Source of the DNA: a virus
Reading direction: 5' to 3' (one strand)
Length of the DNA: 24,187 nt
IMG/VR virus record: IMGVR_UViG_3300025647_000269
Coordinates: 1-24,187 of that record
A program made the translations under genes and the position numbers. Every line of letters starts with the position of its first letter. The first letter of the stretch is position 1. The notes under the pieces are model-generated. The model was not told the DNA's origin. It made no database searches and saw only the letters and a list, made by a program, of their open reading frames with translations. Shown here piece by piece: positions 6,680 through 21,338 of this stretch.

Positions 6680-6701
6680 CCCCGCCTAGGCGGGGTTTTT
6701 T
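6680..6701 (+). terminator. intrinsic terminator of gp32
   Basis: CCCCGCCTAGGCGGGG (6680-6695) is a perfect palindrome followed by six T, 15 bases after the gp32 stop, and is the most GC-rich spot of the area. There is no T-run on the other side, so it works for the plus strand only. The stop codon of the convergent tape-measure gene overlaps the T-run. Confidence 0.93.
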
Positions 6702-8658
6702 ATATATTGCCGAAAACCATAAATCTTTCTGACATTCTCTGTACAGATGAATCTGGATTTCTAGCGGATGATAAAGGTATAGTTCGTGCATTTCCACCAG
6801 ATGTTGTTGTGTTATTATTGATAACATTATTAACAACACCCATCGATTTTGATTTATCTTTTTCCGCGTTTACTTTAGATTCTATAACTTTATTGTTAAT
6901 TGTTTCTACAATATCTTTACGTTTTTGGGATTGTTCGATATTTTGTTTCTCTGTTGATATGGCTGGTTTCTTTGTTTTTTCAGCCAAACGTTTCTGTTTG
7001 TTTTCATATGCTTCTGGATTGAATACTTTCAACATAGCATCGGATAACATTTTATCTGTACCGAATGTCTCATTTAAGTACTCACCTATTTGCCAACCAC
7101 CATATGCGGAAGAAGCGAGTGCTGCGGCTGGTCCTGCAAAACCCAATGCTTTTGATCCCAATCCTTTACCAATATCTAGTATTTTACCGCCGGCTCCTTT
7201 AGCTAGATTCATAGCACCTTTACCAATATCTAGTATTTTACCGCCGGCTCCTTTAACGGCATTAAAAGCACCTTTACCAACATCCAATATTTTACCGCCG
7301 GCTCCTTTAGCTAGATTCATAGCACCTTTGCCAACATCCAATATTTTACCGCCGGCTCCTTTAACTAGATTTTTACCAACATCCAGTATTTTACTAGGTG
7401 CACCTTTAACGGCATTAAAAGCACCTTTACCAACATCCAATATTTTACCGCCGGCTCCTTTAACTAGATTTTTACCAACATCCAGTATTTTACTAGGTGC
7501 ACCTTTAAGTGTACTCATAATATTTTTTATATTTTTTAAACCAAAAATTCCACCGGCGCTGGCCAAAAAACCACCCAGTATTTTTTTAAGTCCATCAAAC
7601 TTGAAAAGTGTTTTAAATTTACTAAAAAAACCGGACTCTTCTTCATTTTCAATATTAGTACTGGTATTATTACCTTCTTCTTTTTTACATAAACAATCTT
7701 TTATATTATCCAATCTATCAAACAAGCCATCCCTAAATATAGTATCATTAGCTCTATCTTGTTCTTCTGATTGTTCTTTCTGTTTTTCCTTTTGCTGTTC
7801 TTCAGCTATACCTTCATTGGATAAATCAATGGGTGATTGTGGTTCAATTGTTGGTGTTGATTCATCGGTTTCTTTAGATTCATTGGTTGCTTTAGATGAG
7901 CCTCTAGCACTCTCCAATTCCGATTCTCTAATTCTATCAAAGTTTTGACTTAATTCTTCTGAATATTTTTCACGTTCAACTATATTTGCTTTTGAAACAT
8001 CCGACTGTTGTTGTTTTTTTCTTTCTCTTCTTCTAGATATAATTGATTTTGTTACATCCGAACCAATATTAAATGCCGCCATAGCTAATGGATTATTATT
8101 TACTAATCCGGCAAATAATCCTCGCATATCAAGATAATTACCAATCTGATTTTTAGCTGATTCAAGTGCTACACCGCCAATTCCCTTTTTTTGTTTTTTC
8201 TCACTTTGTAAAAACTTTTGTGTATGTGAATACTGAATAACCATGAATTTTTTCATATCTTCATCCATAGAAGAATCTTTAAGACGCTTCAATGTTTCTT
8301 CCAGTCTTTTCAACTGGGTATTCACATCCATTTTTGTTTCACCTCTCCTTGATTCCTCAAGCATATCCTTTAATTCATCATTATAAAAATTCAGAATTTT
8401 ATCATCTTTCCATTTTGACTGTAAATCATTTACACCCTGTTCCTCATTTTTACCGGATCTTATATTTTCAATTCTTCTTTTTTGTAATACTTCCTCAATT
8501 TTTTGTGTCATTACCTCTTGATTTGACAACGTTTGAAAAGATGTATTAAGATCGGCATTATACGCATTTTCATCATATCTTTGCATGGGTAATGGATTAG
8601 GTCTACTTCTTGAAAGTATACCAGCGGTTAAAAGTGTCGTTAAGCCTACGTCAGCCAT
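6700..8658 (-). CDS. tail tape measure / gp29-like baseplate hub protein
   Basis: The 652-residue protein comes directly after gp26 and gp51, where T4-like phages and lambda-type phages place the tape measure. Residues 1-160 and 210-310 are charged, coiled-coil-like helices. Residues about 383-498 hold seven copies of KGAxxKILD(V/I)GKxx. Next is an Ala/Gly-rich hydrophobic stretch (ALGFAGPAAALASSAYGGW), possibly membrane-active, and a polar C-terminus. Tape measures set tail length at about 1.5 angstrom per residue, which would give roughly a 100 nm tail, close to T4 (gp29, 590 residues). The start overlaps the gp51 stop by eight bases and has AGAGG upstream. Sequence similarity to gp29 is not visible; the call rests on position, length and composition. 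Confidence 0.7.
   Translation of the reverse strand: MADVGLTTLLTAGILSRSRPNPLPMQRYDENAYNADLNTSFQTLSNQEVMTQKIEEVLQKRRIENIRSGKNEEQGVNDLQSKWKDDKILNFYNDELKDMLEESRRGETKMDVNTQLKRLEETLKRLKDSSMDEDMKKFMVIQYSHTQKFLQSEKKQKKGIGGVALESAKNQIGNYLDMRGLFAGLVNNNPLAMAAFNIGSDVTKSIISRRRERKKQQQSDVSKANIVEREKYSEELSQNFDRIRESELESARGSSKATNESKETDESTPTIEPQSPIDLSNEGIAEEQQKEKQKEQSEEQDRANDTIFRDGLFDRLDNIKDCLCKKEEGNNTSTNIENEEESGFFSKFKTLFKFDGLKKILGGFLASAGGIFGLKNIKNIMSTLKGAPSKILDVGKNLVKGAGGKILDVGKGAFNAVKGAPSKILDVGKNLVKGAGGKILDVGKGAMNLAKGAGGKILDVGKGAFNAVKGAGGKILDIGKGAMNLAKGAGGKILDIGKGLGSKALGFAGPAAALASSAYGGWQIGEYLNETFGTDKMLSDAMLKVFNPEAYENKQKRLAEKTKKPAISTEKQNIEQSQKRKDIVETINNKVIESKVNAEKDKSKSMGVVNNVINNNTTTSGGNARTIPLSSARNPDSSVQRMSERFMVFGNI
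7164..7510 (-). repeat. seven tandem 54/45-bp repeats in the tape measure gene
   Basis: Units begin at about 7164, 7218, 7272, 7326, 7371, 7425 and 7470, with periods of 54, 54, 54, 45, 54 and 45 bases, all multiples of three. Neighbouring units differ at few bases, and a stretch of about 55 bases recurs almost exactly 99 bases apart (near 7355 and 7454). The near-identity at DNA level means recent expansion by unequal recombination or slippage. Each unit encodes 18 or 15 residues. Confidence 0.92.
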
Positions 8659-8827
8659 TTTTTCTAGCCTCTTCCTCTTTTCTTAATTGATCTAGTAACA
8701 TATTTGTGTAAATATTTAATTCAAAGGGAATCAGATTTTCGATCTCGGTTAATGAATATCCAAAATGATATATCATCATGAAATTATTTCTATACATTGA
8801 AATAAGTTCACCCTTTCCAAAGATCAC
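8651..8827 (-). CDS. 51: gp51-like baseplate hub assembly protein, probably made by -1 frameshift from gp26
   Basis: A short reading frame between gp26 and the tape measure reads VIFGKGELIS, then MYRNNFMMIYHFGYSLTEIE and NLIPFELNIYTNMLLDQLRK. This is the type of small protein annotated as gp51 next to gp26 in T4-like phages of marine bacteria: a single helical hairpin with a Y-x-N-F-x-M-M core and an LIPFE/MPWE turn. From GTG 8827 it has 58 residues, from ATG 8797 it has 48. Neither start has a well-spaced ribosome-binding site (AAAGGG lies 13 bases before the ATG). The frame is -1 relative to gp26 and overlaps the gp26 stop, with a slippery heptamer just before. By analogy with lambda G/GT it may act as a tail-assembly chaperone. 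T4 gp51 is much longer (249 residues), so the name follows usage in distant relatives. Confidence 0.65.
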   Translation of the reverse strand: MIFGKGELISMYRNNFMMIYHFGYSLTEIENLIPFELNIYTNMLLDQLRKEEEARKNG

Positions 8828-9522
8828 CCTAAAAAATCCGATAATCCCTCTAATTTAACTTCTGATTCTGCACCACAACTAATACACTTAATATTAATAT
8901 CCTTCTTTAATTGTGGTTGATTTCCAACATAATCTTCTATTTTATTGAATGCTTCTGTTGGTAAACTTTCTAAAAATTCATAAAGATCAACTTCAGTAAA
9001 ATCATTTCTACTATAAATCTGATTCTTATCAAAAACTTTATCAATTGATGCTAATATTAATTTATATCCTTTATCAATATCCATCTTTTCTTCTGATGCT
9101 TCTTTAATATCTTTATATGTTGCTATTTTCATAAGCACACCAACATCATCATTAATCATTATTTTCTCATCCATTTGCTCTTTAACAACTGTTACGGTTG
9201 ATAGTTGTAAATCAACAGGATTCTTTACACCACACTCATTACATTTAAATGATAATTCTACACTTTCACCTACGGATTTTGCTCTTAAATTTAATATTAA
9301 AAATTCAACATCGGCAAGTGGTAATTCATCAATGTTTATTTCTCCAAATGTACATGATCTAGCAATATCTTCAATAGCATTATTTAATTGTTCATCATCA
9401 CCCATTTCAAGAGCTTGTAATAAAACTTTTTGTTCTTTTACTAGAAATGGGCGAAATTTAATTTTTTTACCGGTTACTGGTAATTCCAGATCAAGTTTCG
9501 GTGTTTCGATTTTAGGTAACAT
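8824..9522 (-). CDS. 26: gp26-like baseplate hub / tail assembly protein
   Basis: The 232-residue protein opens with LPKIETP and TGKKIKFRPFLVKEQKVLL, the signature of the T4 gp26 baseplate family (T4 gp26, 208 residues). Two CxxC pairs, C94-C97 and C213-C216, probably form a zinc ribbon closing the C-terminal domain. gp26 acts in assembling the central hub of the baseplate. The start has GGAGT at good spacing, 15 bases after the stop of the tail-tube-like gene. The gene ends on a slippery sequence that may send some ribosomes into gp51. A TATAAATA on the minus strand (9599-9592) might give it a late promoter. Confidence 0.88.
   Translation of the reverse strand: MLPKIETPKLDLELPVTGKKIKFRPFLVKEQKVLLQALEMGDDEQLNNAIEDIARSCTFGEINIDELPLADVEFLILNLRAKSVGESVELSFKCNECGVKNPVDLQLSTVTVVKEQMDEKIMINDDVGVLMKIATYKDIKEASEEKMDIDKGYKLILASIDKVFDKNQIYSRNDFTEVDLYEFLESLPTEAFNKIEDYVGNQPQLKKDINIKCISCGAESEVKLEGLSDFLG
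8830..8851 (-). promoter_or_regulatory. -1 ribosomal frameshift signal at the end of gp26
   Basis: On the minus strand AGAGGGA (8851-8845) is followed after eight bases by T-TTT-TTA (8836-8830). The heptamer is in the gp26 frame as X-XXY-YYZ, two codons before the gp26 TGA. A Shine-Dalgarno-like element about ten bases upstream of a slippery heptamer is the arrangement that stimulates -1 shifting in E. coli dnaX. Slipping gives AGG-GTG-ATC-TTT, directly in the gp51 frame. I see no strong downstream hairpin. Confidence 0.55.
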
Positions 9523-9537
9523 AATTTAACTCCATAA

Positions 9538-10176
9538 TTAATTTGATACTTTTCTAAAAAAATAATCAGATTTATAATCTATATTATTCCAATATTTATA
9601 TGACATATTAACGGTACATGATAATATTTCATTGGAAGAAGCATAAGAATAGTTTATATCACTAAGAGCAATTGGATACGCTTCTCTAAGTTCAACACCA
9701 TAAGTAACTTTATTACTCTTATCTAATTGGTATATTCTAATTGTAGATACATACTCATTATAAAAATTCATTGTACCATCAATAGTATTAACAATAACTT
9801 CTTGCCAATATTCGAAATATTTTCTTTCTTTTAAATTAGCCGATAGTGTAAAAGTAAGTGATACTGGATCATATGCTTGTGAATTTGGTATTGTAATTGG
9901 ATAATTTTCATGTTTATGCTCACTGGTATTTAATCTTCTACCTGGCATTGTTACTGAAGAACACATCATTGATAATTCTCCATTTCTATTGAATGAATTA
10001 TCAACCTGAGCCGCATTATCAACATTAAATAGTGTTTCTGATGTATTATCTGAAACCTGAAAATCATCACCCATAAATGGAAAAGTAAATTCAACCCAAT
10101 ATCTATTTGGATTTGCTATTGAATTTGATTTTATTACTTGGTTGACAAAATTTTCAACTCCACTATTGTAAGCCAT
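9538..10176 (-). CDS. tail-tube-like protein (gp54/gp19-type)
   Basis: The 212-residue protein shows the tube-protein pattern of T4-like phages: NRYWVEFTFPF near the start, then MMCSSVTMPGRRLNT, AYDPVSLTFTLSANLKERKY, FEYWQEVIVN, TIRIYQLDKSNKVTYGVEL, EAYPIALSDINYSY and MSYKYWN. This matches the shared fold of tail tube gp19 and the tube initiator gp54 (T4, 320 residues). By position in the hub operon, as opposed to the sheath/tube operon, it is more likely the baseplate-tube junction protein than the main tube subunit. The start has AGGAGT (minus strand) ten bases after the stop of the preceding gene. The fold call is firm; gp54 versus gp19 is open. Confidence 0.75.
   Translation of the reverse strand: MAYNSGVENFVNQVIKSNSIANPNRYWVEFTFPFMGDDFQVSDNTSETLFNVDNAAQVDNSFNRNGELSMMCSSVTMPGRRLNTSEHKHENYPITIPNSQAYDPVSLTFTLSANLKERKYFEYWQEVIVNTIDGTMNFYNEYVSTIRIYQLDKSNKVTYGVELREAYPIALSDINYSYASSNEILSCTVNMSYKYWNNIDYKSDYFFRKVSN
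9592..9599 (-). promoter_or_regulatory. possible late promoter before gp26
   Basis: TATAAATA read on the minus strand lies 70 bases upstream of the gp26 start, inside the previous gene, where it encodes part of SYKYW. It may be a chance match. Confidence 0.2.
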
Positions 10177-13880: not shown

Positions 13881-15175
13881 TAGATAATCAAATAGAGAAT
13901 GGTGGATTTTCATTCGGTAATTTTAATTGGTGGTTTGGTGTAGTTGAAAAACGAGATGATCCTGAAAAATTAGGTAGACTTCGCGTAAGAATTCTAGGAT
14001 ATAATTCACCTGATACATCCGATATAAAATCTGAAAAGCTAATATGGGCTTATCCAATTCAACCAATTATATCATCTGCTATGAACGGAATTGGTTTATC
14101 GCCAACGGGTATTGTAGAAGGTACTTGGGTATTTGGATTTTATCGTGATGGCCATTTCGCGCAAGACCCAGTTATACTTGGAACAGCAGGTGGTATTCCT
14201 TCCGATAAGAAACAATTTAAGGGTGGTGATGGATTTATTGATCCTCTGGGTACTTATCCTAGAGATGACTTCATTGGTGAATCTGATACAAATAGATTGG
14301 CTAGAAATGATCCACCAGACGATTCTGGTGATAAGCCACAAACTATATTAGAAAAACAGAAAAGCGGTGAATCTCAAAAAGTACCTATTGCATTAGAGGG
14401 TTTGTCAAAGCAAGTCGCTCAAGCTAAACAACATAAGCAGGATGTTGAAGAAAAGAAAAATTGGACTGAGAAAGTCACTACATACAATGCACTCTATCCA
14501 TTCAATCATGTTAAAGAAACCGAATCTGGTCATATTGAAGAATGGGATGATACTAGGGATGCTGAACGATTTAAACGTTGGCATCGGTGTGGTACCTTTA
14601 TTGAAGAACATAATGATGGAGATGTTGTACGTAGAGTTAAAAGAAATAATTATGAATTGATTATGGGTGAGAATTTTGTTCAGGTTATTGGCGACTGTTC
14701 AATTACTATTGGTGCTGGTGATGATTTTGGTACTATAGAATCTGATGAAATGGATTGGACAAAAGAAGATTCTAATCCAAATATTGAACGCGGTGAAGAA
14801 CCACATCTAAAAGATGTTCCTGAAATGTGGGATGAAGAATTGGATGATGACGCATATGTTGATCCGGACTTAGATGTTAAGAAATATAAAAAAGCATGGA
14901 AAAATGAGAGAAATATTGGTAAATCATCTTTGAATCTATTGGTTAAGGGGGATGTAAACCTTGAAGTTGAAGGTGATAGATATGAGAAGGTTCATGGTAA
15001 AATGGAATTATATGTTGAGAAAGATTTGCATATAAAGAGTGGTGGAACTATTTACGCCGATGGTGGACCCGATATACATCTGAATAAACCCGGACCCACT
15101 CTTGATGTTGAATCTATTGCTTCTCCTGATTGGAGTTCAAATAAAAAAGGTAGAATAGATCCAGATGAGCAATGA
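13877..15175 (+). CDS. 5: gp5-like central spike protein without lysozyme domain
   Basis: The 432-residue protein begins with the gp5 OB domain (about residues 12-110): NWWFGVVEKRDDPEKLGRLR, GTWVFGFYRDGHFAQDPVIL, GTAGGIP. A polar linker follows (about 110-205). Then comes the VgrG/gp5-type spike entry, ETESGHIEEWDDTRDAERFK, with HRCGTFIEEHNDGD and VQVIGDCSITIG. Last is a repeating beta-helix (LNLLVKGDVNLEVEGD, LYVEKDLHIKSGGTIYADGG). The T4 protein (575 residues) has a lysozyme domain between OB and helix; here that part is only a linker with no catalytic Glu-Asp-Thr pattern, as in several marine T4-like phages. Cell-wall digestion must come from another protein. It overlaps the next gene by 11 bases. 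Confidence 0.88.
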   Translation: MIDNQIENGGFSFGNFNWWFGVVEKRDDPEKLGRLRVRILGYNSPDTSDIKSEKLIWAYPIQPIISSAMNGIGLSPTGIVEGTWVFGFYRDGHFAQDPVILGTAGGIPSDKKQFKGGDGFIDPLGTYPRDDFIGESDTNRLARNDPPDDSGDKPQTILEKQKSGESQKVPIALEGLSKQVAQAKQHKQDVEEKKNWTEKVTTYNALYPFNHVKETESGHIEEWDDTRDAERFKRWHRCGTFIEEHNDGDVVRRVKRNNYELIMGENFVQVIGDCSITIGAGDDFGTIESDEMDWTKEDSNPNIERGEEPHLKDVPEMWDEELDDDAYVDPDLDVKKYKKAWKNERNIGKSSLNLLVKGDVNLEVEGDRYEKVHGKMELYVEKDLHIKSGGTIYADGGPDIHLNKPGPTLDVESIASPDWSSNKKGRIDPDEQ

Positions 15176-18100
15176 ATTAGTTCTACGAAATCAAGGTGAG
15201 TGGGAATTTCCCTATTATGATCCAAGCTATCAAAAAACCGATAGAATTATCGAAATGGCGATTAACTCAAAATATATCGCCTACTCCTTTAGTGGTTATA
15301 GAGAAGATTTACTTGATTATTATGAATACATAGAAATACGTGATTTGGAAACTAATGATCTAGTTACCACATTATATACAACTCTTATGTATGATGAAAC
15401 ATTTGGTGGCGCTATGGCCATGAATGAAAATTATCTTGCTGTAGGTACAGGGGGCATATTTGCTGATTATGGATATCCCAATACTAGCAGAATTGAAGTC
15501 TTTAATTTAAATACGTTTGAATTTGAATATGAAATTACTGAACCAACATTACAGCAAGTAGAAAATCATTTATCAAGCTATACTAGTAATACATTAAATG
15601 TTTATGATGGCTATATTGGATCGTTTAATTCAACCAATGGCATGAAACTACAACTAACAAATGATGATAATTTAATATCGCTTACTGATATTAGTGTTTC
15701 TTGCATTATTGATGCACCCGTACAAATTTATACATTTAATGAGTATGGTCCACAAAATGGTTATGCAAATGTGGGTGTTACTCAGAAAAATACAGTAACA
15801 ATAGATGGTCGGGATCCAGATAATTATGATAATATTTTAGAAAATTATGCTGAATATACACCATTCATAGAAACAGATTATCAATTAGTTTTTGATGGAT
15901 ACTATGATGATAGAGCATTTAATTTAAATTGTCCTTTTCCAGTTGTATATTTAAATGTAGAATATGCCGCAAATGAAACATGGTTAAATGCTAACTCAAT
16001 AATAACATTTGGTGATTCGACTTTTGAATATAATTTTGATTATTCTTATCCTGAACTTCCAAAAATATTTATAGATTATAGTGATGGATCCATACATAAA
16101 ATATATGAAAAAACTATCGGTGATATTGGAAATAGAACACATCATGTCGTACCACATTTTTCGTTTGAACGTGATGAATATGGTAATATTGATTTAATAT
16201 ATGAAATTATTTTTCATGAAGCAGAACCTTGGCGTATTGATATTTTAATTCATCATAGAGAACCGAATCCACAGTTTTATAATAACATGAACGGTTATGA
16301 TTTGAATGTGGGTGATGAACTGATTTCACTTAATTTATTATATAGTTATGACTTAAAGAATAATAATTTTATAGATTTCTATAGAATATTTGATGCAAAT
16401 ATAAATTATTTAAACGAGATGGTTAGAATCTCCGGAGAAAGCTTCGCGCAGGCTTTTGGTTCCGAATTTGCTATTGAAAATGATGGTACTGTTGCTTTAT
16501 CATATTTTAGATCCTATGATACAATACCACCTACTTGGGTGGATGAATCAAATGTGGGTGCTTTAATATTTGACACATATAGTCATGAATTGATTAGCGA
16601 TAATATTATGATTGGTGAAAACTCAATTGAAGTTGATAGTAATTACGTTTATACCGTTGGCACAAACATTGTTAATGCTAATGATTCCACTCCATTACAA
16701 CCTATAACTGGAAAATACGCATATAGGTTTGATGTTAATGCACAATTTAAAGTATATACATCATTAACTATAGATACATATAATGATAATTTTCTGAAAT
16801 ATTCCAGAATATATGTTGATAAATTTTATTCAGTTAATACACAAAATATAAATGGTTCTTATGTACAACATGGAGAAATAACACCAGTAGTTGATGAAAA
16901 TCATCCAGATTATAATGGGTTTGATGATACATTCGGACAAGATGTATTTTTATTGGATGATAAAATTTATATTACATCATCAAAATATCAATCAATATAT
17001 GTTTTTAATGCGGAAACTTTACAATTAATAACCGAATTTAAAAATCCAATAAGCACCAATTTATATTTCGGTGAATATGTTTCTTTTAGTGATTCTACAA
17101 TTGCTTGTTCGGTTTTTGATTCCGTAGCAAATACTAATTCTGTATTGATATATGACATTAATACATTTGATCTACTTCTGACAATTAACGATCCTAATAA
17201 TTATACGGGTAGTATGTTTGGTCGTTTATATGATACGTATTCAAAAACTATTGCTATGACTGATACGAGAATTATAATATCGGATCCAGCATATTTAAAT
17301 GATGTTGGAAATGGAATAGTTTATGTTTTTAATATTATCTATGGAAATCTAATACATCAAACAGAAAACATACATAGTGGCACAATTGATTTTGGTTTTG
17401 CCGTTGATTTGGATTCACAATATTATTATGTTTGCTGTCCAAATATAACTTCAATATTTTCATTAGAAACGGGCAATACCATTAATTCAATATCTAATTC
17501 TGGGTATTCAATAGACGTTAGCGATAGTTATATTTATTTAATAGACAGTCCGACAGTTGATTCTATACAAACAATTACAGTTTTGGATAAAAATGATTTT
17601 TCAGTTTTTGCATTGGCACCAACAACAATTAGAGTAAATGCATCTGAAGGTTTTAAAAGAATAAAAGAATTTTCCGATAAAATTTATTTAAGTATTCCGG
17701 AGAGAAATCTATTAGATGAAAAAATATTCGATGAGCAACATGACTATAGTAAAATACTTTCATTTCCAACAAATCATTTAATTCAAGAATTTGGTTCTAT
17801 TGTTGATTTTGAATTATTATCCGGAAGATCGTCGATTATTTCAAATTATATAACATATAGTTCCGATTCTAGACTTAATGATAATTTTGGACATGATATT
17901 GCATTATCTCCAGATGGTAAAACACTCTACGCATACGGTAGAACAAATGATACTTTTAATGAAGATAAAGTTTATGTAATTGATACCGAAACAAAATTAG
18001 TTAAGCATATTATAGAGAATCCAAATTTGGGTACAGCCTATGGTGATTTAGCTGATCTTTTTGGAAGAAGAAGTTTTAGTCAGGATCCCGGTACTACTAT

Positions 18101-21100
18101 CGCGGCTGTTGATAATTATATTATCATTGGCGCAATGTCCGAAGATTCAAATATTAATGGCGTTGATGTTTCTAATACAGGTATAGTATATGTTTTTGAT
18201 GCTACAACATATGAATTGTTATATACGTGGGAAACAGATGATTACTATTGGAGTAATTTTTTTGGTAGTAAAATAAGGGCATATGGTGACCATGTATTAT
18301 GTTCTGGTATAGTATCCGCTAAATTATATAGTTTATCTACTGGTTTAGAATTGTGGGATGGCTATTCTACTTATCAAAATTCATATCTGGGTTATGATAT
18401 TGCTATCTCCGATAAGTACTTTGCTATTGGTGGTGCAGAAGGCGCTACTAAATTTGTAGATGTTTATGATATTTTAACGAAAACGTTGTTAACTAGATAT
18501 ACGCTTCAGATTGATCGTGGTGCAGTAGATATAATTGGTGATACATTACTTGTAGATAAAGAAAACTCAACAAATATCTATACTATTGATATTTTAACGG
18601 AAGTAATATCTGAAGTTACAATTGATCCGGCAAAAAACACAAGCAGGATTAGAATAGAGCATAATGATTCTTATATTTTTGTAGTTGATTATGATCATAA
18701 TGAACATTATGCTGTCAGCGTATTGACTCATAATTTTGCAATTGTCAACCAGTATATTGACACATCATTAGCACGTCCGGATTTTATTCAAGATAATTTT
18801 CAAGTAGGATCTTTTGCCGGATCATTAGCATTTGCAAATGATAATAAAATATATTTCGGTTGGCCAAATTATTGGAGTATTTATGGTGAAGAATCTGGTA
18901 GAATTGAAATATTTTCTTTTGATAATGATTTACTTGAATTTACATGGAATGATTGGATTGAAGCAATTGAGGATTCTAATGGAACAATACCGGCTGTTGA
19001 TACGAATGTAAATTATTCAATAAGTGGTTTAAAGTCAAATGATAGATGGGAAATTATTGGACATGTTAGTGGTCCTCATGTACCTGAACCTACTGTAAAT
19101 AATGCTGATTGGACTGTTGAGGTTATCGACAAGTATTATGAAACAACTTTTCCTAATATAAGATTGAGGAGATATACATCACCATCATTATACTATCGTG
19201 ATGATGGTTTTGGTAAAGTTGTTGAGATTTCAGATAATGGTATAATGGCTATTTCGGCTCCAGATCACTGGGATGGTTCATTAATACCTTATGCCGGTAT
19301 TGTTTATTTATTTGATTTAACATCAAATCAGATGACCTATACTAATTGGATTGAAGAACCAACTACCGCATCAAATCATTATTTTGGTTCAATTTCATCA
19401 ATATCACCAAATGGCAGATATTTATCTATTGGAAATACAGTTGGTAATGTTTACGTTTATGATTTAATTTCGACTCCAACATTAGTAGCCACTTTAGATA
19501 GTACAACAGGAAATTTACAGTTTGGTCGAGGTATAGCATCATCAAACGATTATGTTGCTATTGTGGATAATAAATTTGTTGAAATATTTTCATTAGTTGA
19601 TTTTAGTCTATTAGCAACGATTGATCCATCAATCGATGCTCCTTTAGGTGTAAACTTTAACAGAATATTTGAAAAATATATTAAAATTCAAGGTAATAAA
19701 TTATTTATTCCAATTGATCAAAATTCAAAATATATTTTAATATATGATTTAACAGATATAAACTCGGTATCTTTTATTAAATATATTGATGTTCAAACTA
19801 CTAGTTATTTTTCTTATGATGTTTGTGGTGCTTATTTGGCTGTAGGTACTAATAAAGTATTGGTGTATGATAATCAAGATAATGCATATCCTCTAATTAA
19901 AGAATATTCAAGTTATGCATATGCTAATCTAATGGTTTATGATACATTCGCTATTTCCAATGATGGTAGAATATTGCACCAATATAATGACTCAACAATT
20001 ATTAGTTTAGATGATATAATATTTGACATGTTTGATTATTATGAAAGAATAGGTAAGAATATACGTGATCTGAAATCAGAAAATGAAATGTTGGAAATTA
20101 AAGTATATGATAAAAATAATGGAGATTTTTTAGATTCAAATACAATAGGTGGTTCTCAAGTTTATCAAAATAATTTTAATAGTTCCGCTGGTGGTTTTTA
20201 CACTACAAGGCTGGATGTTGAAGATTATGATATTAGAAACACATATTCAGTTGAAATGAAAGGAGCATGTTTGGTTATTTCTAATCCATATGAAGTTTAT
20301 TATGATAACAATGGAAATTTAGTTGAAGGTGCAATTCGCGTTGTCAAAAAGAGTACATTAAATGAAATATTCTATTATAGAGAAAAAAATCTTTTTGAAT
20401 CTGGATATACGAATAATATAGATCAATCAATAACTAAAAATAGATTTGTTAGTTGGACTGGAGATGAGGTTTTTAATCTTTATGATAGAGTTATAATCAA
20501 CAGTAATAAAATTGTATCTTTAACAGATACATCATATGACGATATTGATACTCAAGGACCAAATTTTTTCTGGGGTGTTTGGGATTATTCATGTGGATGT
20601 AAAATAACTTATATAACTTCATCCACACTATACAATGATTATCTACCATTAACTGAAACCGAACATAATGATGATTATCCTGAAGTAGCCATGGAAAATT
20701 ATGAATTCTATAAAAAGATAGAATATACTGCTGATTCAGAACCAGAAATATTTGAAATTGTTTCGGGTGAACTACCGAATGGATTGGATATTGATTTACA
20801 TACACTTGAAATTACTGGTATACCAACACTTGGCTGTAATATAGAGAATGGAAATATTCCGTTTAATCAATGGCATATTAATGAGGATTCATATAGACAG
20901 GCGACACCATCTTTTGAATATACAATTATTATTAAAGCAGATTGTGATGAAGATTCTTTTCCATATACGATACCTGTTTATCCAAACTGGACTCCGTATA
21001 AAGATGCACTTAATAATTCTGAGCAATATTTTGAAAGACCAATTAAAAATAAAATAATTACTGAATATGAATATACATATGAAAAAACAATCGGTTCGGA

Positions 21101-21338
21101 ATTATGCCCATGCGGTACTGAATTAACAACCGAAATAAAAACTTCTACTATTATTGAAAATAAGTATAAATACCAACATAACGATTTAATTGAACATTTC
21201 GAAACAGAATCTACATGTACGCCATTTAGGTTAACTGAAAATAACGAACAATTAATTATAACAGAAGAAAAAATAAAACCCAAAGTAACATCAAAATTAA
21301 AACCTATAGATAAAACGGGTTTATGTTGTGAGGAATAA
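15165..21338 (+). CDS. giant beta-propeller-like virion protein (2057 residues)
   Basis: This is one uninterrupted frame covering a quarter of the window, inserted between the gp5 spike and the PAAR tip. Most of it is built of irregular beta repeats of the form DNYIIIGAMSED, GIVYVFDATTYELL and SPDGKTLYAYG. These resemble FG-GAP, YVTN or WD-type propeller blades (clear around residues 590-760, 900-1050, 1060-1130 and 1340-1520). Residues about 1866-1889 (SGELPNGLDIDLHTLEITGI) look like an Ig-like He_PIG domain. The C-terminus is Cys-rich (CPCGTE near 1981, final LCCEE). There is no signal peptide or membrane segment. The composition is rich in Asn, Asp, Tyr and Ile. By inference it is a large baseplate-attached fibre or receptor-binding protein. 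The start ATG overlaps the gp5 end and lacks a clear ribosome-binding site, so coupling is likely. A TATAAATA occurs at 21165-21172 near the 3' end. The specific function is unknown. Confidence 0.75.
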   Translation: MSNELVLRNQGEWEFPYYDPSYQKTDRIIEMAINSKYIAYSFSGYREDLLDYYEYIEIRDLETNDLVTTLYTTLMYDETFGGAMAMNENYLAVGTGGIFADYGYPNTSRIEVFNLNTFEFEYEITEPTLQQVENHLSSYTSNTLNVYDGYIGSFNSTNGMKLQLTNDDNLISLTDISVSCIIDAPVQIYTFNEYGPQNGYANVGVTQKNTVTIDGRDPDNYDNILENYAEYTPFIETDYQLVFDGYYDDRAFNLNCPFPVVYLNVEYAANETWLNANSIITFGDSTFEYNFDYSYPELPKIFIDYSDGSIHKIYEKTIGDIGNRTHHVVPHFSFERDEYGNIDLIYEIIFHEAEPWRIDILIHHREPNPQFYNNMNGYDLNVGDELISLNLLYSYDLKNNNFIDFYRIFDANINYLNEMVRISGESFAQAFGSEFAIENDGTVALSYFRSYDTIPPTWVDESNVGALIFDTYSHELISDNIMIGENSIEVDSNYVYTVGTNIVNANDSTPLQPITGKYAYRFDVNAQFKVYTSLTIDTYNDNFLKYSRIYVDKFYSVNTQNINGSYVQHGEITPVVDENHPDYNGFDDTFGQDVFLLDDKIYITSSKYQSIYVFNAETLQLITEFKNPISTNLYFGEYVSFSDSTIACSVFDSVANTNSVLIYDINTFDLLLTINDPNNYTGSMFGRLYDTYSKTIAMTDTRIIISDPAYLNDVGNGIVYVFNIIYGNLIHQTENIHSGTIDFGFAVDLDSQYYYVCCPNITSIFSLETGNTINSISNSGYSIDVSDSYIYLIDSPTVDSIQTITVLDKNDFSVFALAPTTIRVNASEGFKRIKEFSDKIYLSIPERNLLDEKIFDEQHDYSKILSFPTNHLIQEFGSIVDFELLSGRSSIISNYITYSSDSRLNDNFGHDIALSPDGKTLYAYGRTNDTFNEDKVYVIDTETKLVKHIIENPNLGTAYGDLADLFGRRSFSQDPGTTIAAVDNYIIIGAMSEDSNINGVDVSNTGIVYVFDATTYELLYTWETDDYYWSNFFGSKIRAYGDHVLCSGIVSAKLYSLSTGLELWDGYSTYQNSYLGYDIAISDKYFAIGGAEGATKFVDVYDILTKTLLTRYTLQIDRGAVDIIGDTLLVDKENSTNIYTIDILTEVISEVTIDPAKNTSRIRIEHNDSYIFVVDYDHNEHYAVSVLTHNFAIVNQYIDTSLARPDFIQDNFQVGSFAGSLAFANDNKIYFGWPNYWSIYGEESGRIEIFSFDNDLLEFTWNDWIEAIEDSNGTIPAVDTNVNYSISGLKSNDRWEIIGHVSGPHVPEPTVNNADWTVEVIDKYYETTFPNIRLRRYTSPSLYYRDDGFGKVVEISDNGIMAISAPDHWDGSLIPYAGIVYLFDLTSNQMTYTNWIEEPTTASNHYFGSISSISPNGRYLSIGNTVGNVYVYDLISTPTLVATLDSTTGNLQFGRGIASSNDYVAIVDNKFVEIFSLVDFSLLATIDPSIDAPLGVNFNRIFEKYIKIQGNKLFIPIDQNSKYILIYDLTDINSVSFIKYIDVQTTSYFSYDVCGAYLAVGTNKVLVYDNQDNAYPLIKEYSSYAYANLMVYDTFAISNDGRILHQYNDSTIISLDDIIFDMFDYYERIGKNIRDLKSENEMLEIKVYDKNNGDFLDSNTIGGSQVYQNNFNSSAGGFYTTRLDVEDYDIRNTYSVEMKGACLVISNPYEVYYDNNGNLVEGAIRVVKKSTLNEIFYYREKNLFESGYTNNIDQSITKNRFVSWTGDEVFNLYDRVIINSNKIVSLTDTSYDDIDTQGPNFFWGVWDYSCGCKITYITSSTLYNDYLPLTETEHNDDYPEVAMENYEFYKKIEYTADSEPEIFEIVSGELPNGLDIDLHTLEITGIPTLGCNIENGNIPFNQWHINEDSYRQATPSFEYTIIIKADCDEDSFPYTIPVYPNWTPYKDALNNSEQYFERPIKNKIITEYEYTYEKTIGSELCPCGTELTTEIKTSTIIENKYKYQHNDLIEHFETESTCTPFRLTENNEQLIITEEKIKPKVTSKLKPIDKTGLCCEE

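Follow-up and report, generated by a model that had tools for sequence, protein, structure and literature searches.

A predicted −1 frameshift joins gp26 to a gp51-like module in a T4-like phage and its relatives, in the manner of lambda G/GT

Phage lambda makes a short product and a −1-extended long product from G/GT, which is flanked by a tube-family gene and the tape measure gene, and its slip site, the heptamer GGGAAAG, comes shortly before the short ORF ends. This −1 frameshift was reportedly described by Xu, Hendrix and Duda in 2004. It was reviewed in Atkins 2016 (PMC5009743), where lambda-type G-T frameshifting was stated to be conserved in long-tailed phages ‘except T4’. T4 gp26 and gp51 are listed as hub assembly chaperones, and gp51, which tail assembly requires, is not part of the completed virion (PMC3004832). 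Vladimirov, Gautam and Davidson 2022 (Virology 566:9), as cited in two later papers (PMC10885494, PMC12846349), identified both proteins as tail assembly chaperones, and the title of that article argues for a mechanism other than frameshifting. In the PRFect paper (PMC10885494), it is the source given for T4-like phages that have one short gene and a separate gene for the fused long form, and in the Adele paper (PMC12846349) for poly-T slip signals in the chaperone genes of T4-like phages. The tail chaperones of Vandenendeviridae and Andersonviridae carry a GTTTTT slip motif (PMC12846349). As at the locus described here, their poly-T −1 slip lies close to where the short chaperone ends, and the extension has been listed as a hypothetical gene of its own, but they belong to other phage families, GTTTTT is not T-TTT-TTN, and the likeness is one of motif and layout. 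As these papers (PMC5009743, PMC10885494, PMC12846349) describe it, the kind of system is already known, and going by the citing passages, some T4-like phages are probably known to use it as well. The present analysis adds its extent across the sampled phages, a codon-level test with a T4-group contrast, the start-codon argument, and an explanation of the short cyanophage gp51.

The window, a stretch of 24,187 nucleotides, is a fragment of an uncultivated T4-like phage with relatives of the T4-like genes gp32, PhoH, gp5, gp53, tail tube cap, gp25, and gp6. The order on its minus strand is head-closure protein, DNA end protector, tube-family protein, gp26, gp51-like segment, and a 652-residue ORF (Table 1). 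The gp26 gene and the gp51-like segment are located between the tube-family gene (5′) and the tape-measure-like gene (3′), similarly to G/GT in lambda. The initial annotation equated this order with lambda V, G, T, H. The outline holds, but the tube-family neighbour is not clearly the major tube protein; the gene adjoining gp26 is annotated as a gp54-like tube initiator in several relatives, and the neighbour in the window may be one too. The 652-residue ORF, whose ATG overlaps the end of the −1 frame, showed no tape-measure family match of its own except one partial match, and the gene at its position in HTVC008M is annotated as ‘putative tail tape measure’. Compared with lambda, the heptamer is different, and gp26 is larger and has two extra Cys-Cys motifs.

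Table 1. Features of the gp26/gp51 locus, in window coordinates.
Feature	Coordinates	Strand	Support
gp26-like ORF, 232 aa, short tail assembly chaperone (TAC-N)	8824..9522	−	PF12322 E 1.4e-56; phrog_150 E 2.7e-58; AlphaFold2 N-terminus vs HK97 chaperone 2OB9 Z 6.8
Slippery heptamer T-TTT-TTA	8830..8836	−	Sequence; T-TTT-TTN in 35/37 distinct relatives
gp26 0-frame stop TGA, one codon past the slip site	8824..8826	−	
gp51-like −1 frame extension, 59 codons + stop, predicted C-terminal module of the long chaperone	8651..8830	−	phrog_634 E 4.9e-16; conservation from first post-slip codon
AGAGGGA, possible internal Shine-Dalgarno stimulator	8845..8851	−	Synonymous-recoding median P 0.39
652-aa ORF 3′ of the gp51-like segment, probable tape measure protein, 18-residue repeats	6700..8658	−	HTVC008M same-position annotation
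Tail tube / tube-initiator family protein, upstream of gp26	9538..10176	−	phrog_45 E 7.8e-42; PF06841 E 2.9e-06, just under its cut-off

The 3′ end of gp26 reads TTA-GAG-GGA-TTA-TCG-GAT-TTT-TTA-GGG-TGA. Inside it, T-TTT-TTA occupied the correct X-XXY-YYZ register close to the gp26 stop, where the initial annotation had placed it. After the slip, the −1 frame reads AGG-GTG-ATC-TTT... and remains open over 8830-8654, giving the translation RVIFGKGELISMYRNNF...KNG, and its stop (8653-8651) falls within the first codons of the downstream ORF. A second ORF in −1 therefore overlaps the end of gp26 at a slippery heptamer, as in systems of the lambda G/GT kind. This single sequence was weak evidence, because the window ORFs contain 69 in-frame XXXYYYZ heptamers in 7718 codons, codon shuffling gave P = 0.064 for a heptamer among the last five gp26 codons, and the DNA is AT-rich. 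The junction was therefore compared across T4-like relatives, a comparison which the initial annotation had proposed.

The comparison sample consisted of 80 viral relatives and 14 named phages, and conservation was counted over 37 representatives with less than 70% protein identity. T-TTT-TTN was present in all but two of these 37. In the 35 relatives that carry it, the gp26 stop lies zero or one codon past the slip, with the exception of L076, in which the stop is eight codons further on and the heptamer is still in place. All 35 have T followed by TTT here, for which the joint log10 P, given the amino acids and the codon usage of each locus, was −14.3, a value that treats the lineages as independent although they are not fully so. 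The slip TTT codon was identical in 100% of same-residue pairs and the preceding codon in 94%, and the two slip codons ranked first and second of the 171 testable gp26 columns for codon identity (mean 49%). As the relatives retain the same site, the slip-site signal is real. A reading without frameshifting, in which the heptamer only reflects a conserved Asp/Ser-Phe-Phe motif and the AT-richness of the gene, would fit the retention of Phe-Phe for protein reasons even in T4 gp26, and also the chance value obtained in the window alone. However, T4-group gp26 codes the same residues mostly by the non-slippery TTC-TTT, no codons of the gene are better conserved than those of the slip site, and phages in which TTT is rare still use it here, namely the less AT-rich Menderavirus (TTT = 21% of Phe) and RHph_I34 (18%). 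The explanation without a frameshift thus has a negligible probability.

The last base of the heptamer varied, being mostly C and also A, T, or G, which is expected of the Z position. Most relatives have six T only, ended by C (T-TTT-TTC). Transcriptional slippage occurs in other systems, and at this T run, RNA polymerase would add or drop a U, and the mRNA would code the fusion directly. The run of six or seven T does exist, but the six T of most relatives are short for polymerase slippage, and the codon-register pattern suits tandem tRNA slippage instead; we consider the polymerase route highly improbable.

The −1 frame was under protein constraint from the first post-slip codon in the 35 relatives, which confirms the earlier claim that the gp51 frame is conserved 5′ of its first ATG. 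The first −1 residue was Arg in 28 of the 35, coded by CGN in 26 and by AGG or AGA in L003 and in L002, a near-identical relative of the window. Where the heptamer ends in A (window, L003), the first −1 codon is AGG or AGA, and Arg is retained. As to starts, the first ATG of the window extension is residue 12, a GTG overlaps the gp26 stop (GTGA), and no Shine-Dalgarno motif was found before any start of the −1 segment in the window, in agreement with the proposal that gp51 has no well-spaced ribosome-binding site of its own. There was no ATG before extension residue 18 in 24 of the 35 relatives and no ATG, GTG, or TTG in the first 18 extension residues in 13; L050 and L076 showed none of the three before residue 32. 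As the conserved block spans this stretch, independent initiation does not explain the start-less relatives. These results also bear on translational coupling, in which gp51 would be a separate short protein made by reinitiation, either at the GTG within GTGA or some 30 bases later at the ATG. Both starts are available in the window, K474, D510, and Mendera have an ATG overlapping or near the gp26 stop, and public annotations list gp51 as its own gene. Against this stand the start-less relatives and the missing Shine-Dalgarno in the window, and coupling would conserve neither the TTT-TT codons nor the residues 5′ of the start. Coupling is therefore unlikely, with a small residual probability.

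The position of AGAGGGA, eight bases 5′ of the heptamer, was as initially annotated, but its role as a stimulator did not stand. The AGAGGGA-type Shine-Dalgarno ranked above the rest of gp26 in strength (median rank 0.10), and synonymous recoding detected no selection on it beyond the amino acids. Codon identity at the site was 0.49, 0.23, and 0.22 for Glu, Gly, and Leu, respectively. The element is explained by the conserved Glu-Gly codons, and we do not claim an internal Shine-Dalgarno stimulator, as there was no excess over synonymous recoding (median P 0.39). Downstream RNA folding was weak (mean z −0.9 near +15), and no conserved downstream hairpin or pseudoknot was found, as RNAalifold on 20 relatives gave no pairs.

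The proposed −1 shift fusing gp26 to gp51 is strongly supported by the slip site, the frame, the missing starts in many relatives, the codon conservation, and the T4 gp51 comparison described below. It is very probable that a −1 frameshift at the gp26 end yields short and long tail chaperones of the G/GT type. The shift in the cell, its efficiency, and the partners of each product are inferred. Most ribosomes would halt at the gp26 TGA and release the short chaperone. In a minority, the tRNAs on TTT (P site) and TTA (A site) would slip back one base onto TTT-TTT, and these ribosomes would read on in the −1 frame to give a fusion of roughly 290 residues with the gp51-like helical module. On the lambda model, the short form, in many copies, would wrap the tape measure protein and keep hold of it, the long form, in few copies, would bring in tube subunits, and the shift would set the short/long ratio.

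The AlphaFold2 model of gp26 had a pLDDT of 88. Its residues 1-84 matched the HK97 tail assembly chaperone 2OB9 (VIA-align: rmsd 3.9, 83 aligned) with Z 6.8, and 3FGX was matched with Z 7.9 and the row after these two had 3.4, where a Z below 8 can mean a common arrangement. Foldseek of the gp26 model against the PDB gave no match below E 0.3, and no tail chaperone was among the structure matches listed for the T4 gp51 model. The model comparison is supportive, not proof, of a chaperone fold in the short product. Gene order and this fold match together support the lambda G/GT logic put forward in the initial annotation.

The window proteins are homologous to T4 gp26 (PF12322) and gp51 (phrog_634), but the arrangement differs. 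In T4, genes 26 (minus) and 51 (plus) are separate and divergent, gp51 is full-length, and gp26 lacks the slippery codons. In the window, both lie overlapping on one strand, the gp51 segment has no N-terminal domain, and the long form would come from one locus via the predicted shift. An hhalign alignment of T4 gp51 (249 residues) with the predicted gp26-gp51 fusion ran end to end through the junction (232 columns, probability 97.5, E 5e-12), and the T4 gp51 stretch VFKLLVNPDEIFTFYQ paired with the fusion junction FFRL..RHD.L.NYY. Because the alignment crosses the junction, T4 gp51 is the single-frame counterpart of the long product. T4-group gp26, which has no need of the slip signal, still ends in Phe-Phe without it. 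Long T4-type gp51 was found in 1339 phage records, so the frameshift and separate-gene solutions are both common. The view of gp26/gp51 of T4-like phages as G/GT-type therefore applies outside T4’s own subgroup and the separate-gene relatives; the qualifier is needed because T4 itself does not frameshift. The ‘except T4’ statement (PMC5009743) is likewise qualified by the predicted frameshifting in T4 relatives, and at gp26/gp51 one can test whether a separate gene took the place of frameshifting. In one record (L123:1836-1860), a T4-type gp51 is split over two reading frames, by sequencing error or a real interruption.

Two kinds of exception were observed. At 18 Ackermannviridae-type loci and in Maynard, the gp26 3′ end reads GA[A/G]-ATT-TTC-AT[T/C]-TAA, a sequence that all of L097-L114 and L090 (Ackermannviridae type) have, and gp51 is in the −1 register. 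At the Ackermannviridae-type loci, the gp51 segment is free of start codons up to about residue 15. As an early start codon is missing, these loci may shift too, at a non-canonical site (T-TTC rather than a tandem heptamer). Two Vibrio phages have CTT-TTT or CTT-TTC, with gp51 still in the −1 register and an ATG or GTG at the gp26 stop, where they may reinitiate. With gp26 of Vibrio K474 as the query, a scan of viral contigs gave no match, and gp26 was not found in the genome regions examined of ACP17 and Variovorax V45v66. It is possible, although we lean slightly against it, that frameshifting at gp26/gp51 was ancestral in the wider T4-like group, that the T4 subgroup swapped it for a gp26 duplicated into a hard-wired long gp51, and that in Ackermannviridae the −1 register persisted with a non-canonical slip in place of a tandem heptamer (NTT-TTY, perhaps by slippage of one tRNA on T-TTC).

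The frameshift reading puts right an error that runs through the annotations: wherever we inspected an annotated relative of the same layout, gp51 had been shortened to begin at an internal start, entered as a gene apart from gp26, or overlooked. It also accounts for cyanophage gp51 having only about 20% of the usual length (Sullivan 2010, PMC3037559), the missing part being gp26, joined by the predicted frameshift, and the same account probably holds for gp51 reported absent in Aeh1. In Aeromonas phage Ah1 (L092:3214-3381), gp51 is unannotated, and the −1 segment falls in the unassigned stretch that separates gp26 from its neighbour, which may explain the gp51 reported missing in the related Aeh1.

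Two further observations concern other genes of the window. The probable tape measure gene contains tandem 54-base (18-residue) repeats at 7163-7508 on the minus strand, and tail length could change through their expansion. On the plus strand, 15165-21338 is a single ORF of 2057 residues, whose one WD40 match falls below threshold; its product may be a very large protein of the tail or for adhesion.
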